From the NCBI GenBank assembly GCA_021844425.1, contig JAKBTL010000138.1, positions 1-63,985 on the forward strand: 63,985 bases of DNA, in the 5' to 3' direction. The position numbers and the translations under genes were made by a program. The number at the start of each line of letters is the position of its first letter. Position 1 is the stretch's first letter. This DNA is from Actinomycetes bacterium (lineage in GTDB: Bacteria; Actinomycetota; Acidimicrobiia; Acidimicrobiales; RAAP-2). This document shows, one piece after another, positions 20,487-29,757 of the stretch. The notes under the pieces were generated by a model, which did no database searches, was not told the DNA's origin, and saw only the letters and a list, made by a program, of their open reading frames with translations.

Positions 20487-22304
<1,818 letters not shown>

Positions 22305-22378
22305 GGTGCGTCGATCGTAGTGGGGGCGGGGAAGACCGCGGGCGATGGGCTCACGACGCTTCCCGCGAGCTCGCCGCA

Positions 22379-22497
22379 GGGAGCGATGCGCAGGGAGCGA
22401 TGCGCAGGGAGCGATGCGCAGGGAGCGATGCGCAGGGAGCGATGCGCAGGGAGCGATGCGCAGGGAGCGATGCGCAGGGAGCGATGCGCAGGGAGCA
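22379..22497. repeat. 14-bp tandem repeat, 8 perfect copies plus partial ninth
   Basis: The unit GGGAGCGATGCGCA occurs eight times without a mismatch from 22379 to 22490, followed by GGGAGCA. It lies between divergent lepA and rpsT, where both promoters should be. Because 14 is not a multiple of 3 and no gene spans it, it is non-coding; the spacing is about one and a third helix turns. Perfect identity implies recent expansion. Confidence 0.96.
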
Positions 22498-22608
22498 GCA
22501 TGCACGCGCTGCTACCATCGAGGTCCGCCGTATCCCGGGACGAACCCCGGGGCCGCGCGCCGCCGGCCGGGTCGGCGGCACCCGACCGAAGATCCGAGGA
22601 ACCGCACC

Positions 22609-22908: not shown

Positions 22909-23964
22909 TCAACGGCGGGCGCGGCTCGCCCGGCGCTCGGCTCTGCCGTGTGCCGGCTGTGGCCCCCCGCCGCGACTGCCGGCCAGGCGAGCCAGCCGAG
23001 CCACGAGGATCTCGAGCACCAGCTCGGGCGCCAGAGCGGTCCGCCCCTTCACGTCGAGGTCGGCGTCCGCGACGAGGGTGACGGCCTGGCCGACGCGCTC
23101 GCCCCCGAGCCGGCGCGCGCCGTCGAGCGCCTTCTTCGCGAGGAAGGCGCTGCGGACACCGAGCAGTGCCGCGGCGACGTCGCCGGAGGACGCGTCGGCC
23201 CCGTCGAGCCGCAGCATGGCCGAGAAGTGCCCGTGCAGGATCGCCACGACCATCGGCGCCGCGCGGCCCGCGGCGAGCAGCCGTCGGAGCGCTCTCAGGG
23301 CGCCGGAGACGTCGCCCGCGTCGATCGCGTCGGTCAGCTCCCAGGGCGGCACCGCTCCCGCCTCCCCGAGGAACGGCTCGAGCGCAGCCGCGCTCACCTT
23401 CGCGCCCTCGCCGTAGGCGGCGGCGAGGGACTGGAGGAGACCTTCGAGCCGGCCGACGTCCTCGCCGAGGTGCTCCTCGAGCCGGCGAGCCGCTCCGGGG
23501 TCCAGCTTCACCGGCGCATGGTGCAGCTGCTCGGCCATCCAGCGCCCGCGCTCGCGGCCCCTGCCGGCGCCCGTCTCCACCACCCCGCCGACCGCGGTCG
23601 CCGCCTTGACCAGCGGCGCCGGGATCGTGCCGCCACCCGAGACGAGCACGAGGTGCACCGACGGGACCGGGTGCTCGAGGGCGGCAACCAGTCTCGAGGC
23701 GTCTGCCGTGCCGAGACGTCCGGCGTCGCGAACGACGACGACCCGGCGGTCGACGAGGAACGGCGGCGTGGTGCAGGCGTCGACGACCGCGGCGGCGTCG
23801 AGCTCGTCGCCGGCGCCGTGCTCCTCGACGACGAGCGAGTGCTCGAGGCCGCCCGCCAGCTGCTCGACGAGCGAGCGGGCCGCCTGCGCGACGAGGACCG
23901 GGTCTTCCCCGCGCACGAGGTGCAGCGGCGCATCGGGGCGCCCGCCGGCACGCGCCGGGGTCAC
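22909..23964 (-). CDS. holA: DNA polymerase III subunit delta
   Basis: The delta subunit opens the sliding clamp in the clamp-loader complex. The 351-aa protein has the family N-terminus APLHLVRGEDPVLVAQAARSL, the stretch VVVVRDAGRLGTADAS, VHLVLVSGGGTIPAPLVKA and the C-terminal helical collar (AILHGHFSAMLRLDGADA; LGGERVGQAVTLVADADLD). It is not an ATPase itself, and no Walker motif is seen. GTG 23964 overlaps the stop of the folP2-like gene (GTGA), so the two are coupled. Convergent with rpsT. Confidence 0.92.
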   Translation of the reverse strand: MTPARAGGRPDAPLHLVRGEDPVLVAQAARSLVEQLAGGLEHSLVVEEHGAGDELDAAAVVDACTTPPFLVDRRVVVVRDAGRLGTADASRLVAALEHPVPSVHLVLVSGGGTIPAPLVKAATAVGGVVETGAGRGRERGRWMAEQLHHAPVKLDPGAARRLEEHLGEDVGRLEGLLQSLAAAYGEGAKVSAAALEPFLGEAGAVPPWELTDAIDAGDVSGALRALRRLLAAGRAAPMVVAILHGHFSAMLRLDGADASSGDVAAALLGVRSAFLAKKALDGARRLGGERVGQAVTLVADADLDVKGRTALAPELVLEILVARLARLAGSRGGGPQPAHGRAERRASRARR

Positions 23965-24911
23965 CGCTCGCGCTTCGCTCGCACCGGCTCGCCACCGCGC
24001 GCCGAGAGGACCTCGGCCAGCGCGTCGCGCACCCGGACGGTGCCGACGACGTCGTGCACCCGCAGGATCCGACAGCCCAACGTGACGCCGAGCGCTGCCG
24101 CGCCGAGCGACGCCTCGCGACGCTCGGCGATCTCCAGCCCGAGCACGGTGCCGAGGAACGTCTTGTTCGACGCCGACAGAAGGAGTGGATGCCCGAGGCC
24201 CGCGAGGACGTCCGACGCCCGTAGCAGCGCGAGCGAATGCTCGGCGGACTTCCCGAGGTCGAGGCCGGCGTCGAGCACGACACGTTCGGCAGGCACGCCG
24301 GCCGCCATGGCGCGATCGGCGAGCCCTGCGAGGGACCCCGCGACCGTCGCGACGACATCGGCGTAGACGGGATCGGGGTCTGGGACCCGAGGCGCGAGCC
24401 GGATGTGGGTCGCCACGACCGACGCCCCAGCGCGGACCGCGACCTCGAGGTACTCGGGGTCGGCGAAGCCGCTGATGTCGTTGCCGACCACGGCGCCGGC
24501 CTCGAACGACGCTTCCGCCACGCTCGCACGCCACGTGTCGACCGACACGGGCACGTCGAAGCGGGCGGTGATCGCCTCGATCGCCGGCACGACGCGCTCG
24601 AGCTCCTCCGCCTCGCCGACCTCGGGCCCGGGACCGGCCTTGACCCCGCCCACGTCGAGGAGGTCCGCGCCATCCGTCACGAGCTGCTCGGCACGGCGCA
24701 GGAGCGCGTCGAGCGCGAAGGTGGCGCCCCGGTCGTAGAAGGAGTCGGGCGTGCGGTTCAAGATGCCCATGACGAGCGCTCGGTGCTCGACGTCGTAGCT
24801 GCGGCCGCCGAGCGCGAGATGGCGGACAGACCGGCCGATCCGAGCCACCGCACGCGTCCGGGGGACACCATCGGCCCCCGTGCTCCTGGCCTCCCTGCCG
24901 GCGGTCTCCAC
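23961..24911 (-). CDS. Dihydropteroate synthase-like protein, FolP2 type
   Basis: A 316-aa pterin-binding TIM-barrel protein with MGILNRTPDSFYDRGATF, DLLDVGGVKAGPGPEV, VPVSVDTWRASVAEA and GNDISGFADPEYL. The motif VGGVKAGPG and the truncated GAT segment resemble the FolP2 paralogue of mycobacteria rather than the canonical folate enzyme. FolP2 of M. tuberculosis is reported not to act as a dihydropteroate synthase, so a folate role should not be assumed. There are no fol neighbours; the partner is holA. Confidence 0.85.
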   Translation of the reverse strand: METAGREARSTGADGVPRTRAVARIGRSVRHLALGGRSYDVEHRALVMGILNRTPDSFYDRGATFALDALLRRAEQLVTDGADLLDVGGVKAGPGPEVGEAEELERVVPAIEAITARFDVPVSVDTWRASVAEASFEAGAVVGNDISGFADPEYLEVAVRAGASVVATHIRLAPRVPDPDPVYADVVATVAGSLAGLADRAMAAGVPAERVVLDAGLDLGKSAEHSLALLRASDVLAGLGHPLLLSASNKTFLGTVLGLEIAERREASLGAAALGVTLGCRILRVHDVVGTVRVRDALAEVLSARGGEPVRAKRER

Positions 24912-24961
24912 GAAGTGGGACCCTACCGAAACGGGCCAGAGCCCTCGCGGAGAATTTCCAC

Positions 24962-24990
24962 TTGCAACGCCGCTTCAAAGAGCGTATGTT
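24962..24990 (+). promoter_or_regulatory. Sigma70-type promoter driving the c-di-GMP riboswitch
   Basis: TTGCAA (24962-24967), a 17-bp spacer and TATGTT (24985-24990) match the -35 and -10 consensus closely. Transcription would begin near 24997-25000, just before the riboswitch aptamer. It points away from the folP2-like gene, whose start is about 50 bp to the left. Confidence 0.65.
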
Positions 24991-25013
24991 GGCACTCTCG
25001 GTGCGCTCGTAGA

Positions 25014-25096
25014 GGCGCCGACGAAAGGGCAAACCCACTGCGAGGTGGGGACGCAAAGTCACGGGGCTCCATGAGCTAGCCGGACCGCCGAATCGG
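25014..25096 (+). promoter_or_regulatory. Cyclic di-GMP-I (GEMM-I) riboswitch
   Basis: The sequence carries the GEMM-I signature: AAAGGGCAAACC, a short hairpin closed by a GCGA tetraloop (CCACT-GCGA-GGTGG), the invariant GGGACGCAAAGTC, and a second arm ACGGGGCT...AGCTAGCCGGACCGCCGAA whose GCCGG and CCGAA segments match the tetraloop-receptor side. This aptamer binds cyclic di-GMP. Outer-stem ends are approximate. On the plus strand it is followed by a 43-codon ORF with a strong ribosome site and a terminator-like hairpin. Several GGDEF-family genes lie just to its right. Confidence 0.93.
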
Positions 25097-25180
25097 CCGC
25101 CGCGGGCGTGCCGCCTCTCCGGCGTTCCCCGGGTGGCTCGTGGAGCCGACACAGAGCCAACACAGAGGGGAACGGAACGC

Positions 25181-25312
25181 ATGGGAGAGCGCACCGGCCG
25201 CAGGTATTGCGGCGAGGACCACCGCTCGGCCCTTCCAGGGGTGCCCCGTGCTCGTCTGTGCGCAGATCGTATGCGCTCGGCGGGTTCCCCACGAGGTCGC
25301 CTCAGGGGATAG
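25181..25312 (+). CDS. Small 43-aa ORF downstream of the c-di-GMP riboswitch
   Basis: ATG 25181 follows a good ribosome site (GAGGGGA, about 8 nt upstream) and the frame stops at TAG 25310-25312. The peptide is basic (10 Arg) with two cysteines and no membrane segment, and matches no family I know. It is the first ORF with a good ribosome site after the aptamer. Longer frames starting at 25108 or 25140 run antisense into the GGDEF gene and look random. The riboswitch may control this peptide, or the region may be a regulatory RNA with only an incidental ORF. Confidence 0.4.
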   Translation: MGERTGRRYCGEDHRSALPGVPRARLCADRMRSAGSPRGRLRG

Positions 25313-25320
25313 GGAGCCGA

Positions 25321-25360
25321 GCGGCGGAGCCCCCCGCCCCCCGCCAGGGGGCTCCGCCGC
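25321..25360. terminator. Strong hairpin, likely bidirectional terminator
   Basis: A perfect 14-bp inverted repeat, GCGGCGGAGCCCCC at 25321-25334 and its complement at 25347-25360, with a 12-nt loop. It lies 8 bp after the small riboswitch ORF and 8 bp beyond the stop of the minus-strand gene at 25368. No clear T tract follows on either side, which is common in high-GC actinobacteria. It could also be the riboswitch expression platform. Confidence 0.75.
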
Positions 25361-25367
25361 CGCCGGC

Positions 25368-26600
25368 CTATCGGTCTTGCAGTCGAGCAACGGCGTCGCG
25401 CAGCAGTTCGTCGACGTCGCGACCGTCTCCGGGTGCCGCTGCGACGTGCGCCGTCCGCACGCCGGGCGGGCGGTCGAGCGCGGAGCCCACCGCGACCGCA
25501 ATCCGTCGCTCGACCATGTCGCTCCCCTCGTCGGCAAGCAAGAGCGCTGCCGCGAACAGGCGCTCTTCGACTCGGCCGACCGGATCGGTGCTCCGGAGCG
25601 CGGCGGCGAGCACCCGTGCTGCGGCCTGCGCTGTCCGGACGTCGGGCACTTCTACGACCACGAGCACGAAGGTTCCCGCTGAGCGAGCGCCAGGGGCGAG
25701 CAACCGACCAGCCCGGCTGAAGAAGCTCGCGAGCCCCGGAAGGCCGGTCAGCTGATCGCGTCCCGCCCACCACTCGGCCTCCGGCGTCGCCCCTGCGAGA
25801 GACTTCGCCGCGCCAGTCCTCTCTGGCACCGGCGCATCGTCGCTCCCCTCATTCGGCGCGCCGACGCTGGACGTGCGTGCGCCCCCGAGTGCACTCGGAG
25901 CGAGAGAAAAGCTCGGCGATGCGGGGACCGGGAAGTCCGCAGACATGCCGGTCCCGACGGAGAGCGGGAACTCAGGCGCCTCGGGCACCCACTCAGGCGC
26001 CTCGGGCACCCACTGAGGCGCCTCGGGCACCCACTGAGGCGCCTCGGGCACCCATGGGCCGGCGCTGCGGAGCCTGTCGGGGCGCTCGTGTCCCCCATTG
26101 GCTCCGGGATCCGCCCTGTCGGCTCCGTGACCAGGATCCGCCCTGTCGGCTCCGTGACCAGGATCTGCCCTGTCGGCTCCGGGGTCCCCCGCGCGGGCGA
26201 GCTGCTGGACCACTCTCAGGTGCCGGACGAGGCGCTCGGCCAGCTGCCCGAGGACGTCGAGATGCGCTGCCTCGAACCGGTGATCAGGTTCGGCGACGAG
26301 CCCGATCATGCTGTGGCCGCCCCCGTCGCGCAGCGGGGCGACCGCCAGGGTCACCTGGCGCCCCACGCGCCCGCTGCGGACGAAGACGCGCGCGTGGACG
26401 AACTCCGGATCTGCCGACGCCTGCCGGACGAGCTCCGCGAGCTCGTCGGGTGAGAGCCCCTCGGCGGACCCGGGCTCCGGGACGGAGATGATCTCTGGAG
26501 CTCGGCCGGCGGTGTCGAGTGCGGCGAAGGCCGTTCCGGCCGCGGTGTCGCGACGAGCAACCCGCAGGAGGTTCTCGACGGTGGTCGTCCCGATGTGCAC
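25368..26600 (-). CDS. Degenerate GGDEF-domain protein with repeat linker
   Basis: A 410-aa protein. Residues 1-130 look GAF-like (TTTVENLLRVARRDTAAGTA; MIGLVAEPDHRFEAAHLDVLGQL). A low-complexity linker (about 145-280) contains three GADRADPGH repeats and four WVPEAPx repeats. The C-terminal domain starts RDQLTGLPGLASFFSRAGRLL, the classical entry of a GGDEF domain, but the catalytic GGDEF loop is replaced by GRVEERLF, so cyclase activity is not expected; it may be a c-di-GMP or GTP sensor, or a partner of the upstream cyclase. It starts 13 bp after that cyclase gene in the same operon. Confidence 0.8.
   Translation of the reverse strand: MHIGTTTVENLLRVARRDTAAGTAFAALDTAGRAPEIISVPEPGSAEGLSPDELAELVRQASADPEFVHARVFVRSGRVGRQVTLAVAPLRDGGGHSMIGLVAEPDHRFEAAHLDVLGQLAERLVRHLRVVQQLARAGDPGADRADPGHGADRADPGHGADRADPGANGGHERPDRLRSAGPWVPEAPQWVPEAPQWVPEAPEWVPEAPEFPLSVGTGMSADFPVPASPSFSLAPSALGGARTSSVGAPNEGSDDAPVPERTGAAKSLAGATPEAEWWAGRDQLTGLPGLASFFSRAGRLLAPGARSAGTFVLVVVEVPDVRTAQAAARVLAAALRSTDPVGRVEERLFAAALLLADEGSDMVERRIAVAVGSALDRPPGVRTAHVAAAPGDGRDVDELLRDAVARLQDR
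25971..26054 (-). repeat. 21-bp tandem repeat, 4 copies, coding for WVPEAPx
   Basis: Four consecutive 21-bp units (25971, 25992, 26013, 26034) differ at one position only (CTC versus CTG). They are in frame with the gene and give four heptapeptides WVPEAPE/Q in the linker. Confidence 0.93.
26107..26187 (-). repeat. 27-bp tandem repeat, 3 copies, coding for GADRADPGH
   Basis: Units at 26107, 26134 and 26161; the first two are identical and the third has a few changes. In frame they encode nonapeptides of type GADRADPGH in the linker of the degenerate GGDEF protein, 50 bp from the other repeat array. Confidence 0.9.
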
Positions 26601-26613
26601 GAGGGTACGAGCC

Positions 26614-28056
26614 TCAGGACGTCGATCGCCGGGCGTCTGCGCGGCCGCGCTTGTGCAGGTACATGGCTCGGTCCGCTCGGGCGAGGAGCGCGTCAGGGCC
26701 GACGTCTGCCTTGTCGGTGCTCACCCAGCCGATCGAGGCTCCGACGTCGAACGCGATGCCGCGCACGCTGAAGGGCGCGCTCAGCACCTTGCGAAGCCGG
26801 GAGACGACGAGGTCGCCGTCAGGCGGCCGCTCGGTCGTCGCGTGTGCGATGACGAACTCGTCGCCGCCGAGCCTGGCGACGACGTCGTCGCTGCGCACTG
26901 CGCCGCGGAGCCGGCGGGCGAACGCCCCGAGCACCTGGTCGCCCATGTCGTGCCCGTGCTCATCGTTGATCCGCTTGAAGTCGTCCAGGTCCATGTAGAT
27001 GAGCGCCACGGACCCTCCCCGTCTCCCCAGGCCCTGGAGCATGCGGCGCAGCTCCTCGAGCAGCAGATAGCGGTTCGCCAGGCCGGTCAGTGGATCGTAG
27101 AGCGCGTAGTGCGTGAGGCGCTCCTGCTCCAACGACTCTTCGGTCGTGTCGCGCAGCACCACCACCGCGCCGCGGCGACCCTCGATCTCCAGGGGTCTCG
27201 CGGACAGCGTGATGCGACGCTGGCTTCCCCCTGCCTCGCCGACCGTGAGGTGGGACTCCCTGACCATCCCGTCGTGGAGCACGAGCATCGCAGGGTGGAG
27301 ATCCTGCGTGAGCACCTGGCCGTCCTCGGTCTTCATCGTGCCCGTCACCGGCAGGGGCGAGCCGAGGAGGGTCCGGCCCGGCGGGAGCCCGTAGATGGCG
27401 TCGGCGGCTGCGTTCGTGAGCACGACGATCCCGGCCGCGTCCACGCACACGATCCCATCGTCGAAGCAGGCGGCCAACTCCGCGGCGTCGACACGGACGA
27501 GTCCTCGCCCGCCGGCACCCGCCTCCGCCAGCACGGCTCGCCCGCCGGAACCCGCCTCCGGCGGCACGGGCTCGGCTACGGGCGCAGTGCCACCTCGTCG
27601 CGGCGCGCCCGATGACGGCGAGAGGAACTTGGCGAGATCCGACGCCAATCGCGCCAGGCCTGCGCGCTGGTAGCCGTCGGGCTCGGGCAGCCAGGTGTCC
27701 ACCACGCCGAGGAGCCCGAGCTCGATGTCGCCCGACCACACCGGCATGACGACGCACGCGAGGGAACGATCGGCCGAGCCCGCTTCTGTGGACACCTCCG
27801 CGTTCCAGAACAGGTCGCGGCCGTGGGCGGCCGGATGCGACAGGCAGTTGCGCGCGAGCACGTCGACGCGCCGCCAGCCGTCCTCCGGCGGCATCGAGTC
27901 GGAGAGGACCCGCTGCACGGTGCCTGTCATGGCCACGACGAACGCTCCGAGGCCGAGACACAGATCGAGCGCGGTCTCGAGCGCGTCGTCGACCGATCCG
28001 CTCCTAGCCACGTCGGCCACGCCCAGCGCGTCCACCACGCAGCAACGGTACTGCAC
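26614..28056 (-). CDS. GAF-PAS-GGDEF diguanylate cyclase
   Basis: A 480-aa predicted cytosolic diguanylate cyclase making c-di-GMP from two GTP. Residues 1-150 are GAF-like, followed by a low-complexity linker. A PAS domain at about 195-300 has DGIVCVDAAGIVVLTNAAADAIYG and ends VVVLRDTTEE. The GGDEF domain (about 315-475) begins YALYDPLTGLANRYLLL and has an intact active site RLGGDEFVIAH. The inhibitory I-site RxxD is present as RSDD five residues before GGDEF, so product inhibition is expected. It is first in a two-gene operon with the degenerate GGDEF gene and diverges from the gene at 28240. Confidence 0.93.
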   Translation of the reverse strand: MQYRCCVVDALGVADVARSGSVDDALETALDLCLGLGAFVVAMTGTVQRVLSDSMPPEDGWRRVDVLARNCLSHPAAHGRDLFWNAEVSTEAGSADRSLACVVMPVWSGDIELGLLGVVDTWLPEPDGYQRAGLARLASDLAKFLSPSSGAPRRGGTAPVAEPVPPEAGSGGRAVLAEAGAGGRGLVRVDAAELAACFDDGIVCVDAAGIVVLTNAAADAIYGLPPGRTLLGSPLPVTGTMKTEDGQVLTQDLHPAMLVLHDGMVRESHLTVGEAGGSQRRITLSARPLEIEGRRGAVVVLRDTTEESLEQERLTHYALYDPLTGLANRYLLLEELRRMLQGLGRRGGSVALIYMDLDDFKRINDEHGHDMGDQVLGAFARRLRGAVRSDDVVARLGGDEFVIAHATTERPPDGDLVVSRLRKVLSAPFSVRGIAFDVGASIGWVSTDKADVGPDALLARADRAMYLHKRGRADARRSTS

Positions 28057-28239
28057 GAATCATCACGATCCACGCGGTCCGTCCACGCCGACGGGATGGC
28101 CCGCACAACTTCCAGCACCGCCAGCGCGCAGCGGGCTGGGATCCCCGAGACGCGCCGGCGTGCGTCCTACAATCGCCGCTGCGGTGCCACGCGAGAAGGC
28201 CGGTCGCGACAACGTGCGGAGGGGCAGAGGAAGAGAAAA

Positions 28240-29757
28240 TTGGTCGACTCGCCGTTCGTCCTCGAAGAAGATCTCCTCGGGGCTGCGGAGCTCCTCACCC
28301 GCGACGGAGGGATCTCCTGGGTCTACAAGCTGCTGGCAGACGTGGCAGCACGCCATCAGCTCTCGGACGCGTGGCTCGTGCTCGGGCCCGTCGGCGGGTC
28401 GGGCCAAGGAGCCGCGGCAGCGTCGCAGGTATTCGGGCTGGGCGGCGCAGCGGTGATGCCCGCGACGGCCGAAGCGCTGCTCCGCCGGCCCCCCGGCGTC
28501 TACGGCGAGCCGCACTGCCTCGGATCCCTGACGTCCCGCGCGCTCGGAGCCATGTGCGCCATGGCGCTGCGGGCGTCGGTCGCATCGCTCGCGACGGCGG
28601 TCGACCTGCCCTCGGGGCTCTCGAGCACCGCCACGATCGAAGGCGCGGTCGCCCGTGTCGCTGCGTGCGGCGCTCGCTACGGATGGTCGTCGACGCTCCT
28701 GCTGCTCACCACGAGCGGCGACGCGTCGGCAGAGGAGCGGTGGCTCGCGCTCGCAGCGGCGCTGCGCCAGGCGCTCCGGACCGGCGACGAGGCAGGCGTG
28801 GCCGCACCGGGCGTCGCGCTCGCGGTCCTTGCGAACGCCGGCCCCGACGCGGTCAGGCCGTTCATCGCCCGGGTGCGGGAGGCGCTCAGCGCGGGGGGCT
28901 GGACCGACGTCGACCTCCACGCGGCGACGGCGAGGACCCCGGAAGAGAGTGTCGACCCGTCGGAGCTCATGCGCCTAGCCGAAGAGCGGCTGGCAGACGC
29001 TCGTGCAGCGTCGACGGGTGAGGCGGCTCCGGAGCCGGCGGCGCCCGTGCACGACGTCGCCTCGACGCTCGAACTGGAGCTGCGCATGCTCCCCGGCGTC
29101 GTGAGCGTGGGGATGGGGACACCGGTCGTCGTCGTCTCGAGCGCAGCTTCCGAGGTGCTCTACGAACAGGCGCTCCGTCTGGTCCTCCGCCATCTCCCCG
29201 AGGCGTCGATCCGGCTGCTCGGCCTCTCCGACGAGACCGCGGCGCCGAGCACGGCGCCGCCGACCGACGTGGCGCTCCGCCGAGGCCGCGAGGACCTCGC
29301 CGGCACACCGGTGCCTCGGCCCAGCGCGTCACGCGCCATCTCGGCGACCGCGCCTGGCAAGGCGGCGGCCACTGGCGCCGCTCGGGTGGTGCTCCTCGAC
29401 GCGAGCTTCGACGTCGCGCACGGCACGAGCGAGGTGTCCCTCGCCTTCGGCGCGGCGCGCGGCGCCGGCCGCGCTCCCGCGGGGCCCCTCGCCGGCGGCG
29501 CGCAGGCAACGCTCAACGCGCTCAGCGCACTCGGCGTCGACGTGCCCTTCTACCTCGTCTCCGCCGAACGCGCGCACGGCGTGCCTGGCCAGCCGGTGGT
29601 CGTGGCGCTGGCCCCGAAGCGCACCGGCGCCGAGCCGGGCGCAAGGGCAGTCGAGCACCTCGGCGTTGCGAGCGATCCCGAGGACGTCGCAGCCGCGAGC
29701 CGCGCGACGCTCGGAGCGCTCAACCGCCACCTGGCAAGGCTGTCGGCGGCTTCGTGA
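28240..29757 (+). CDS. Unrecognised protein with probable degenerate GGDEF fold
   Basis: A 505-aa protein with no family I can name. Residues about 125-270 follow the pattern of a GGDEF domain (GARYGWSSTLLLLTTSGDAS, ALRQALRTGDEAG, GVALAVLANAGPDAVRPFIARVREAL, SELMRLAEERLADA) but lack the GG[D/E]EF signature. The C-terminal half (about 290-505) has ELRMLPGVVSVGMGTPVVV and GGAQATLNALSALGVDVPFYLVSAE, segments reminiscent of an uncharacterised actinobacterial domain. TTG 28240 is chosen: it follows an AGAGGAAGAG ribosome site and the long upstream frame is antisense to the cyclase gene. The stop overlaps the next GTG (GTGA). Adjacency to GGDEF/EAL genes suggests c-di-GMP signalling. Confidence 0.7.
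   Translation: MVDSPFVLEEDLLGAAELLTRDGGISWVYKLLADVAARHQLSDAWLVLGPVGGSGQGAAAASQVFGLGGAAVMPATAEALLRRPPGVYGEPHCLGSLTSRALGAMCAMALRASVASLATAVDLPSGLSSTATIEGAVARVAACGARYGWSSTLLLLTTSGDASAEERWLALAAALRQALRTGDEAGVAAPGVALAVLANAGPDAVRPFIARVREALSAGGWTDVDLHAATARTPEESVDPSELMRLAEERLADARAASTGEAAPEPAAPVHDVASTLELELRMLPGVVSVGMGTPVVVVSSAASEVLYEQALRLVLRHLPEASIRLLGLSDETAAPSTAPPTDVALRRGREDLAGTPVPRPSASRAISATAPGKAAATGAARVVLLDASFDVAHGTSEVSLAFGAARGAGRAPAGPLAGGAQATLNALSALGVDVPFYLVSAERAHGVPGQPVVVALAPKRTGAEPGARAVEHLGVASDPEDVAAASRATLGALNRHLARLSAAS

Follow-up and report, generated by a model that had tools for sequence, protein, structure and literature searches.

A c-di-GMP-I riboswitch in the analysed window (the whole stretch of DNA, 63,985 nucleotides long) appears to control a stand-alone regulatory RNA of ~360 nt, of which the 3' core would be the output and for which antisense feedback would be the likeliest action; we put the probability of this reading at roughly 0.55. 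The riboswitch unit itself is confirmed as real and, as judged from the orthologous loci, is conserved in its genus. Riboswitches are normally taken as on/off valves of the protein gene behind them. Here, the strongest selection is found on the RNA tail behind a leader ORF, for whose peptide no selection is visible in the clade of the window, so that the switch would govern a regulatory RNA. Comparison of ten species shows that the aptamer, the promoter-like sequence, the Shine-Dalgarno (SD) sequence, the start codon, the in-frame stop and the 3' core were kept and that the peptide was not, and the RNA is likely to be the product. The initial annotation had left two targets side by side, a peptide and the RNA itself; of these the peptide is disfavoured and the RNA favoured, the chief reason being that conservation is higher in the 3' hairpin than in the aptamer.

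The aptamer had been proposed as GEMM-I at 25014-25096, and the Infernal search suggested as a check bears this out: model RF01051 (c-di-GMP-I) matches 25018-25092 with 60.5 bits against a gathering score of 35, and model RF03167 (c-di-GMP-I-GGC) matches 25019-25093 on the plus strand with 60.0 bits (gathering score 59, E 1.2e-11). Given these distances to the two cut-offs, c-di-GMP-I can be assigned safely, and the c-di-GMP-I-GGC label is marginal. A cmscan of the whole window gave two matches over the gathering scores, a tRNA and c-di-GMP-I-GGC, and in the complete 3.0-Mb genome seven RF03167 matches were recovered at E ≤ 10, of which one, the window copy, was over the cut-off (the next scored 17.9 bits). 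The window and its nine orthologues read GACGCAAAG, whereas the GGC consensus reads GACGCGAAG; the base that follows GACGC is thus A (GACGC-A-AAG) and not the G of the model consensus. We take the differing base to be the ligand-stacking A47, which presumably helps to name the variant, and the bases that we assume to contact c-di-GMP (G, A and C) look canonical. The G of the GGC variant (GACGCGAAG) does occur in the genus, in the aptamer of locus L172 of genome G303; the other copy of that genome (L182) has A, and the two aptamer types therefore coexist in G303.

The aptamer is embedded in a compact unit. It is preceded by a promoter-like sequence (24962-24990, plus strand) consisting of TTGCAA (24962-24967), a 17-nt spacer and TATGTT (24985-24990), which is present as the initial annotation had it: the hexamers match the sigma-70 consensus at 8 of 12 positions, and CTTGC and TAnnnT are kept in the ten aligned loci. 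A generic promoter and terminator scan of 23000-27500 called 0 promoters and 0 terminators. Behind the aptamer lies a putative expression platform (25119-25147, plus strand), put forward on the basis of the duplex and pairing-cell tests described below, with an anti-SD GUUCCCC (25124-25130) and a segment complementary to aptamer P3 (25136-25147). It is followed by the SD GAGGGGAAC (25165-25173), with an SD-like purine run before the ATG discernible by eye in all ten aligned loci, and by a leader ORF of 43 codons (25181-25312, with the ATG at 25181 and the stop at 25310-25312). The 3' core (25284-25360) overlaps the end of the ORF and contains an anti-SD-like GUUCCCC (25284-25290), a possible small hairpin (25284-25310), the linker GGGAGCCGA and a 14-bp perfect hairpin with a C-rich loop (25321-25360). 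SD, ORF and perfect hairpin, all part of the original proposal, were found in place by direct reading. The occurrence of ATGGGAGA, the stop and the hairpin at the same place in 10/10 aligned orthologous loci disfavours a chance origin of the unit.

A broad aptamer sequence pattern was found in at least 120 stretches from many phyla. Among 298 genomes sampled from the order, 41 had an RF03167 match at E ≤ 0.001 (19 over the cut-off), and among 39 relatives 26 had one at E ≤ 0.1 (20 over the cut-off); within the genus, which belongs to the Acidimicrobiales, RF01051 scored over the cut-off in 12 of 13 genomes, the exception being G304. Two of the genus loci lie on contigs that proved 100% identical to named ones, L187 to L102 (Actinomycetes bacterium FK2.bin44) and L180 to L041 (Acidimicrobiales bacterium JOPF271). 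Five IMG/VR contigs (L161-L165) carried an exact c-di-GMP-I core pattern, and their riboswitches are possibly phage-borne. The flanks were compared for 32 matches, being 25 family matches with E < 1e-8 other than the window's own and 7 from elsewhere in the order (six weak family matches, E 0.01-0.1, were left out). By synteny, nine of the 32 are orthologous to the window locus: a divergent folP-like gene lies upstream, and genes for homologues of the products of 25368-26600 and 26614-28056 follow downstream. The unit, the window included, is thus found in 10 of the 13 genus genomes. The other three genomes do not count as cases of absence, since their contigs end before the unit is reached: G306 has one contig that starts 208 bases ahead of the folP homologue and another that stops within ~1.1 kb of the cyclase, the contig of G304 breaks off 235 bases past the cyclase, and that of G308 breaks off inside it (no close folP homologue was found in G304 and G308).

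The genes on either side are oriented away from and towards the unit, respectively. The divergent folP-like (pterin-binding) gene (23961-24911, minus strand; Pfam Pterin_bind, 207.9 bits) precedes the unit in the nine orthologous loci too. The convergent gene (25368-26600, minus strand) encodes a degenerate GAF/GGDEF-like protein, with GGDEF and GAF matches below the Pfam cut-off and none at E ≤ 0.01; a comparison of the product with PDB retrieved 2 sequences at E ≤ 1, the better of which matched over a repetitive stretch (query 168-201). Next to it lies the gene of a PAS-GGDEF protein (26614-28056, minus strand; Pfam GGDEF, 132.7 bits, with the letters GGDEF in the translation), a probable diguanylate cyclase. 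The product of 27823-29757 gave no Pfam match at E ≤ 1. What had been described as several GGDEF-family genes thus comes down to one clear diguanylate cyclase, a neighbour that scores below the Pfam cut-offs and a third gene without a match, and the description of a stand-alone unit that adjoins GGDEF-family genes, has no ordinary target gene and is kept in the genus holds. The plus-strand RNA would run tail-to-tail with an operon that probably makes c-di-GMP. Tandem repeats were observed inside the convergent gene (25970-26054, period 21, 4.0 copies; 26107-26181, period 27, 2.8 copies), and a perfect one (22375-22496, period 14, 8.7 copies) lies in an overlong N-terminus of, or just upstream of, the lepA-like ORF 20487-22505.

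The ORF is present in all ten orthologous loci, and in none of them had it been lost from behind a retained aptamer in favour of a longer sense gene. It measures 39-44 codons and stops 8-15 nt before the hairpin. An open frame of 39-44 codons is in itself unremarkable, because it arose in 48-81% of shuffled sequences. In 19 of 20 cases the other two forward frames ran on through the whole region without a stop, and in 10/10 the frame of the ATG itself met a stop shortly ahead of the hairpin, at a site that differs between two frame classes; translation itself therefore looks to be under selection, and we read the ORF as a leader ORF. The two classes are formed by six loci that end in ..RGRLRG* (..QGRPRG* in L170) and four that end in ..TRSP* (..MRSP* in L182), which coincide with clade A (the window's clade) and clade B, respectively. 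The two share nucleotide motifs but read them in different frames, which argues that these motifs are not kept as peptide. A rough ORF picker chose the leader ORF in 9 of the 10 loci; in the exception, L182, it took a frame of 147 codons that starts at the leader stop.

The remaining peptide statistics point in the same direction for clade A and are less clear for clade B. Over five clade-A sequences (L170 was left out because of its length) dN/dS ranged from 0.68 to 2.20 and exceeded 1 in 9 of 10 pairs; the three clade-B sequences compared, L185 not being among them, gave 0.30-0.64. The GC contents at the three codon positions of the pooled ORFs (.72/.71/.69) show no codon periodicity, compared with.75/.51/.89 for the cyclase gene and.71-.81/.45-.57/.80-.91 for five neighbouring genes. 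The difference GC3-GC2 was -0.07 for the window ORF and -0.16 to -0.02 for the other clade-A ORFs, and in clade B it lay at +0.10 to +0.17; in 76 windows of 43 codons taken from four genes its lowest value was -0.03, with 0.15 at the 5% point and 0.42 as the median. Short stretches of real genes can look flat too, an example being the L171 gene, whose first 43 codons have.84/.65/.79 (GC3-GC2 0.14). A tblastn search with the 43-aa product, proposed at the outset as a measure of conservation, matched at E ≤ 1e-3 in only 3 of the 9 orthologues, and the other six ORFs were found by position only; the ORF is kept in ten loci, its peptide sequence is not.

These data bear on the possibility that the riboswitch has a genuine protein as its target, small, basic and fast-evolving. 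The ATG, the open frame and the in-frame stop in 10/10 loci would fit such a protein, as would the net indels within the ORF, which keep the frame per clade (43 and 44 codons, 39 and 40 codons), and the dN/dS below 1 in clade B, where some constraint on the peptide is possible. They are outweighed by the flat pooled codon positions together with a GC3-GC2 in the window (-0.07) that lies below the minimum of all 76 gene windows (-0.03), by dN/dS values above 1 in nine of ten clade-A pairs, by the nucleotide motifs common to both frame classes and by the lack of a Pfam match for the peptide. We consider a small protein unlikely, and the undescribed small basic peptide that had been put forward as a target is thereby disfavoured; we infer that its richness in arginine is what is to be expected at 71% GC. 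Neither is there a protein gene directly downstream, as in a cis-acting riboswitch: a convergent gene follows, and the case is weaker in clade B. In this clade (L182, L185, L169 and L187) an ATG directly after the leader stop opens a frame into the hairpin, which is absent in clade A; in L182 this frame comprises 147 codons and runs antisense to the neighbouring gene.

Behind the ORF the conservation reaches its maximum. In a scan of the ~5.3 kb alignment of the ten loci (5,235 windows of 40 nt, a gap in a single sequence being left uncounted), the windows that start at 25320 and 25321 had 0 variable columns of 40, the lowest value of all; the minimum was 5 within the aptamer and 8 outside the unit, where the median was 27. 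The single deviation is one loop base that is missing in G305. At fourfold sites of two neighbouring genes the other species differ from the window by 0.23-0.67. The window genome has a single copy of the 36-nt hairpin, which is found exactly in 9 of 13 genus genomes, with one copy each; with up to 3 mismatches the 36-mer was found in 0 of 107 other genomes of the family, and a 46-mer version in 1 of 397 genomes of the order sample, the window's own. The hairpin is thus single-copy and genus-restricted in the genomes searched, and a dispersed repeat was rejected on this ground. Rejected as sole cause was also a role as coding sequence of the convergent gene: in 4 of 10 species the minus-strand ORF ends ahead of the hairpin, in 5 it continues across the hairpin in one frame and in 1 it does so in a different frame, and because the hairpin is unchanged across these three configurations, the constraint is on the nucleotides.

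A more mundane explanation would be that the hairpin is a mere bidirectional terminator of convergent transcripts and that the riboswitch controls a minor leader RNA with nothing beyond. Its location between convergent genes, in the window 7 nt past the stop of 25368-26600, is what such a terminator would have, and the hairpin could serve the minus-strand mRNA. Against this, no T-run was found beside the hairpin on either side in the ten loci, as an intrinsic terminator would require, and in 6 of the 10 species the convergent ORF extends across the hairpin. Terminators are expected to keep pairing rather than sequence, and here stem and loop both vary less than the aptamer and than any coding window in the 5.3 kb compared. 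Perfect hairpins of this kind (stem of at least 12 bp, loop of 3-15) are also scarce, with just one other in the window. We therefore regard the terminator explanation as doubtful. The small hairpin of the 3' core (25284-25310) fared less well, as its two sides gave an own-versus-cross p of 0.82 and hence no support.

The platform offers the pairings that a translational switch on the leader ORF would need, and such a switch is supported but not proven by the sequence comparison. The segment 25136-25147 can form 12 bp with 25065-25076 of aptamer P3 in the window, and in the alignment of the ten sequences 61 of the 75 cells of the P3 helix are paired, with five of the twelve pairs lettered in the window alone. 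The GUUCCCC of the platform is complementary to the GGGGAAC of the SD (55 of 64 cells paired for anti-SD and SD), and a second copy of this 7-mer starts at 25284, within the 3' core. Own-versus-cross duplex comparisons (n = 10; 11 tests were made, and the p values ignore relatedness and are uncorrected for this number) showed duplexes to be stronger within a species than between species, with p = 0.019 for P3 with the platform, p = 0.025 for anti-SD with SD, p = 0.0018 for SD with the 3' core (25279-25292) and p = 0.014 for the AUG with 25236-25260; the p values of four comparison pairings were 0.90, 1.00, 0.82 and 0.43. In 17 riboswitches of the genus (L172 and L189 left out) the pairing of P3 with the downstream sequence gave p = 0.001, again with relatedness ignored and uncorrected; the own pairing was better than both cross means in 11 of them, than one in 4 and than neither in 2. 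Two alternative structures, S1 and S2, have 95.1% and 93.0% of their cells paired (slid controls 37-52%) and contain 5 and 7 pairs with changes on both sides, numbers that were reached in 68 and 23 of 500 shuffles; their covariation scores (0.118 and 0.100) were reached in 0 and 1 of 500. The covariation support is therefore modest. Folding of the full-length RNAs with the aptamer enforced lowered the accessibility of the SD in 5 of 10 sequences, raised it in 3 and left it the same in 2; since no consistent direction emerged, the sign of the switch (OFF with ligand) is a guess based on geometry.

Along these lines, the following course of events can be proposed. Without ligand the downstream segment would pair with aptamer P3, and with ligand bound it would be freed to pair with the SD, so that c-di-GMP would lower ribosome entry on the leader ORF. 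The ribosome traffic over this ORF would then decide whether the 77-nt 3' core, which is probably the functional output, folds, survives or is read through. The likeliest place of action would be the tail-to-tail mRNA of the GGDEF-like/diguanylate cyclase pair, and we hypothesise an antisense feedback on the synthesis of c-di-GMP; if true, this would constitute a direct, protein-free feedback loop on the second messenger. Synteny lends weak backing to such action in cis, because the neighbourhood is conserved on both sides. In its complete form, a c-di-GMP-sensing antisense RNA that feeds back on the c-di-GMP operon by way of ribosome traffic over a leader ORF with a meaningless peptide and of an ultraconserved 3' core, the proposal is a tentative one.

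The main alternative concerns the last step. The RNA could act in trans, with its C-rich loop (CGCCCCCCGCCA) pairing to G-rich ribosome sites of other mRNAs and with c-di-GMP setting its level or exposure. The invariance of stem and loop, but for the one G305 loop base, would suit such a trans-acting sRNA, and so would its single copy, its own promoter-like sequence and the precedents of riboswitch-derived sRNAs (PMC8383071); an Rfam search of 24900-25420 at E up to 10 returned just the aptamer, which speaks against it. We hold action in trans to be possible, at rather low odds, which overlap with those of the preferred reading as the RNA product is common to both.

With the rough ORF picker, downstream genes were surveyed in 54 riboswitch loci of the genus, family and order. 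A pilin-like protein (GFTLIELMVV) was found behind at least 6 of the 54, and by eye several CAP-like and secreted proteins were recognised. In another riboswitch of the genus (L171, L174, L179 and L180) a secreted-looking protein starting with MGIGPF or MGIAPF follows; here the P3-competing segment pairs with its own P3 better than both cross means in 2 of the 4. In L189 (G300) and L190 (G318), from two genera, proteins of 70 and 68 aa start 14 nt after the c-di-GMP-I aptamer; by eye they look related, with a similar W/C/H/R-rich C-terminus, and they are a possible small-protein target of the riboswitch. Genome G298 carries a second c-di-GMP-I riboswitch copy, L188, with a leader ORF of 36 codons that starts 77 nt after the aptamer and has codon periodicity (.64/.56/.83). 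Its stop abuts an SD-like GGGAGG and a 192-aa ORF, the product of which had no Pfam match at E ≤ 1, starts 6 nt after it, which looks like translational coupling behind a riboswitch and suggests a route by which the leader ORF of the window may have arisen. The unit might accordingly be what remains of a leader-ORF riboswitch after loss or relocation of the coupled gene, the more so as L188 and the window share 73% identity along a 184-nt stretch that reaches from the aptamer into the first codons of the ORF. A 40-nt 3' hairpin free of substitutions in ten species is not expected of a remnant, and we find this fairly unlikely as an account of the unit as it stands; it may explain its origin, not its present use.

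In the open-licence literature we found no description of this unit among the matches listed, and no paper that joins Acidimicrobi-, riboswitch and c-di-GMP. The known systems that come nearest each share part of its features. The 6C RNA of Actinobacteria consists of two C-rich hairpins and has the C-rich hairpin loop in common with the unit; the Rfam search of 24900-25420 (E up to 10) did not retrieve it. With the c-di-GMP-I (GEMM-I) riboswitches (RF01051, variant RF03167) the relation is direct: the aptamer exceeds both gathering scores and, as in translational switches, the platform would be able to compete with P3 and to sequester the SD. The unit differs from the usual members in that it has no ordinary protein gene behind it and its product appears to be RNA, and from c-di-GMP-I-GGC in the A at the position where that model has G (GACGC-[A/G]-AAG). 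PMC7266159 gives an account of the class together with its c-AMP-GMP variants, and c-di-GMP-I-GGC is named in PMC9943018, PMC12452182 and PMC11124144. The riboswitch-derived sRNAs SreA, Rli55 and EutX, as reviewed in PMC8383071, resemble it as ligand-binding aptamers in short RNAs that act beyond their own transcript; they respond to ligands other than c-di-GMP, and a trans target of the present unit is hypothetical. Closest to the preferred reading are the antisense-acting riboswitches treated in PMC9943018, where the c-di-GMP family is given as the one most prone to antisense orientation (152 of 2,706, P 4.55E-62): in both, a riboswitch transcript converges with a signalling gene, and the present unit is set apart by its own leader ORF and by a frozen hairpin at the junction, through which it would putatively be read into the antisense gene.
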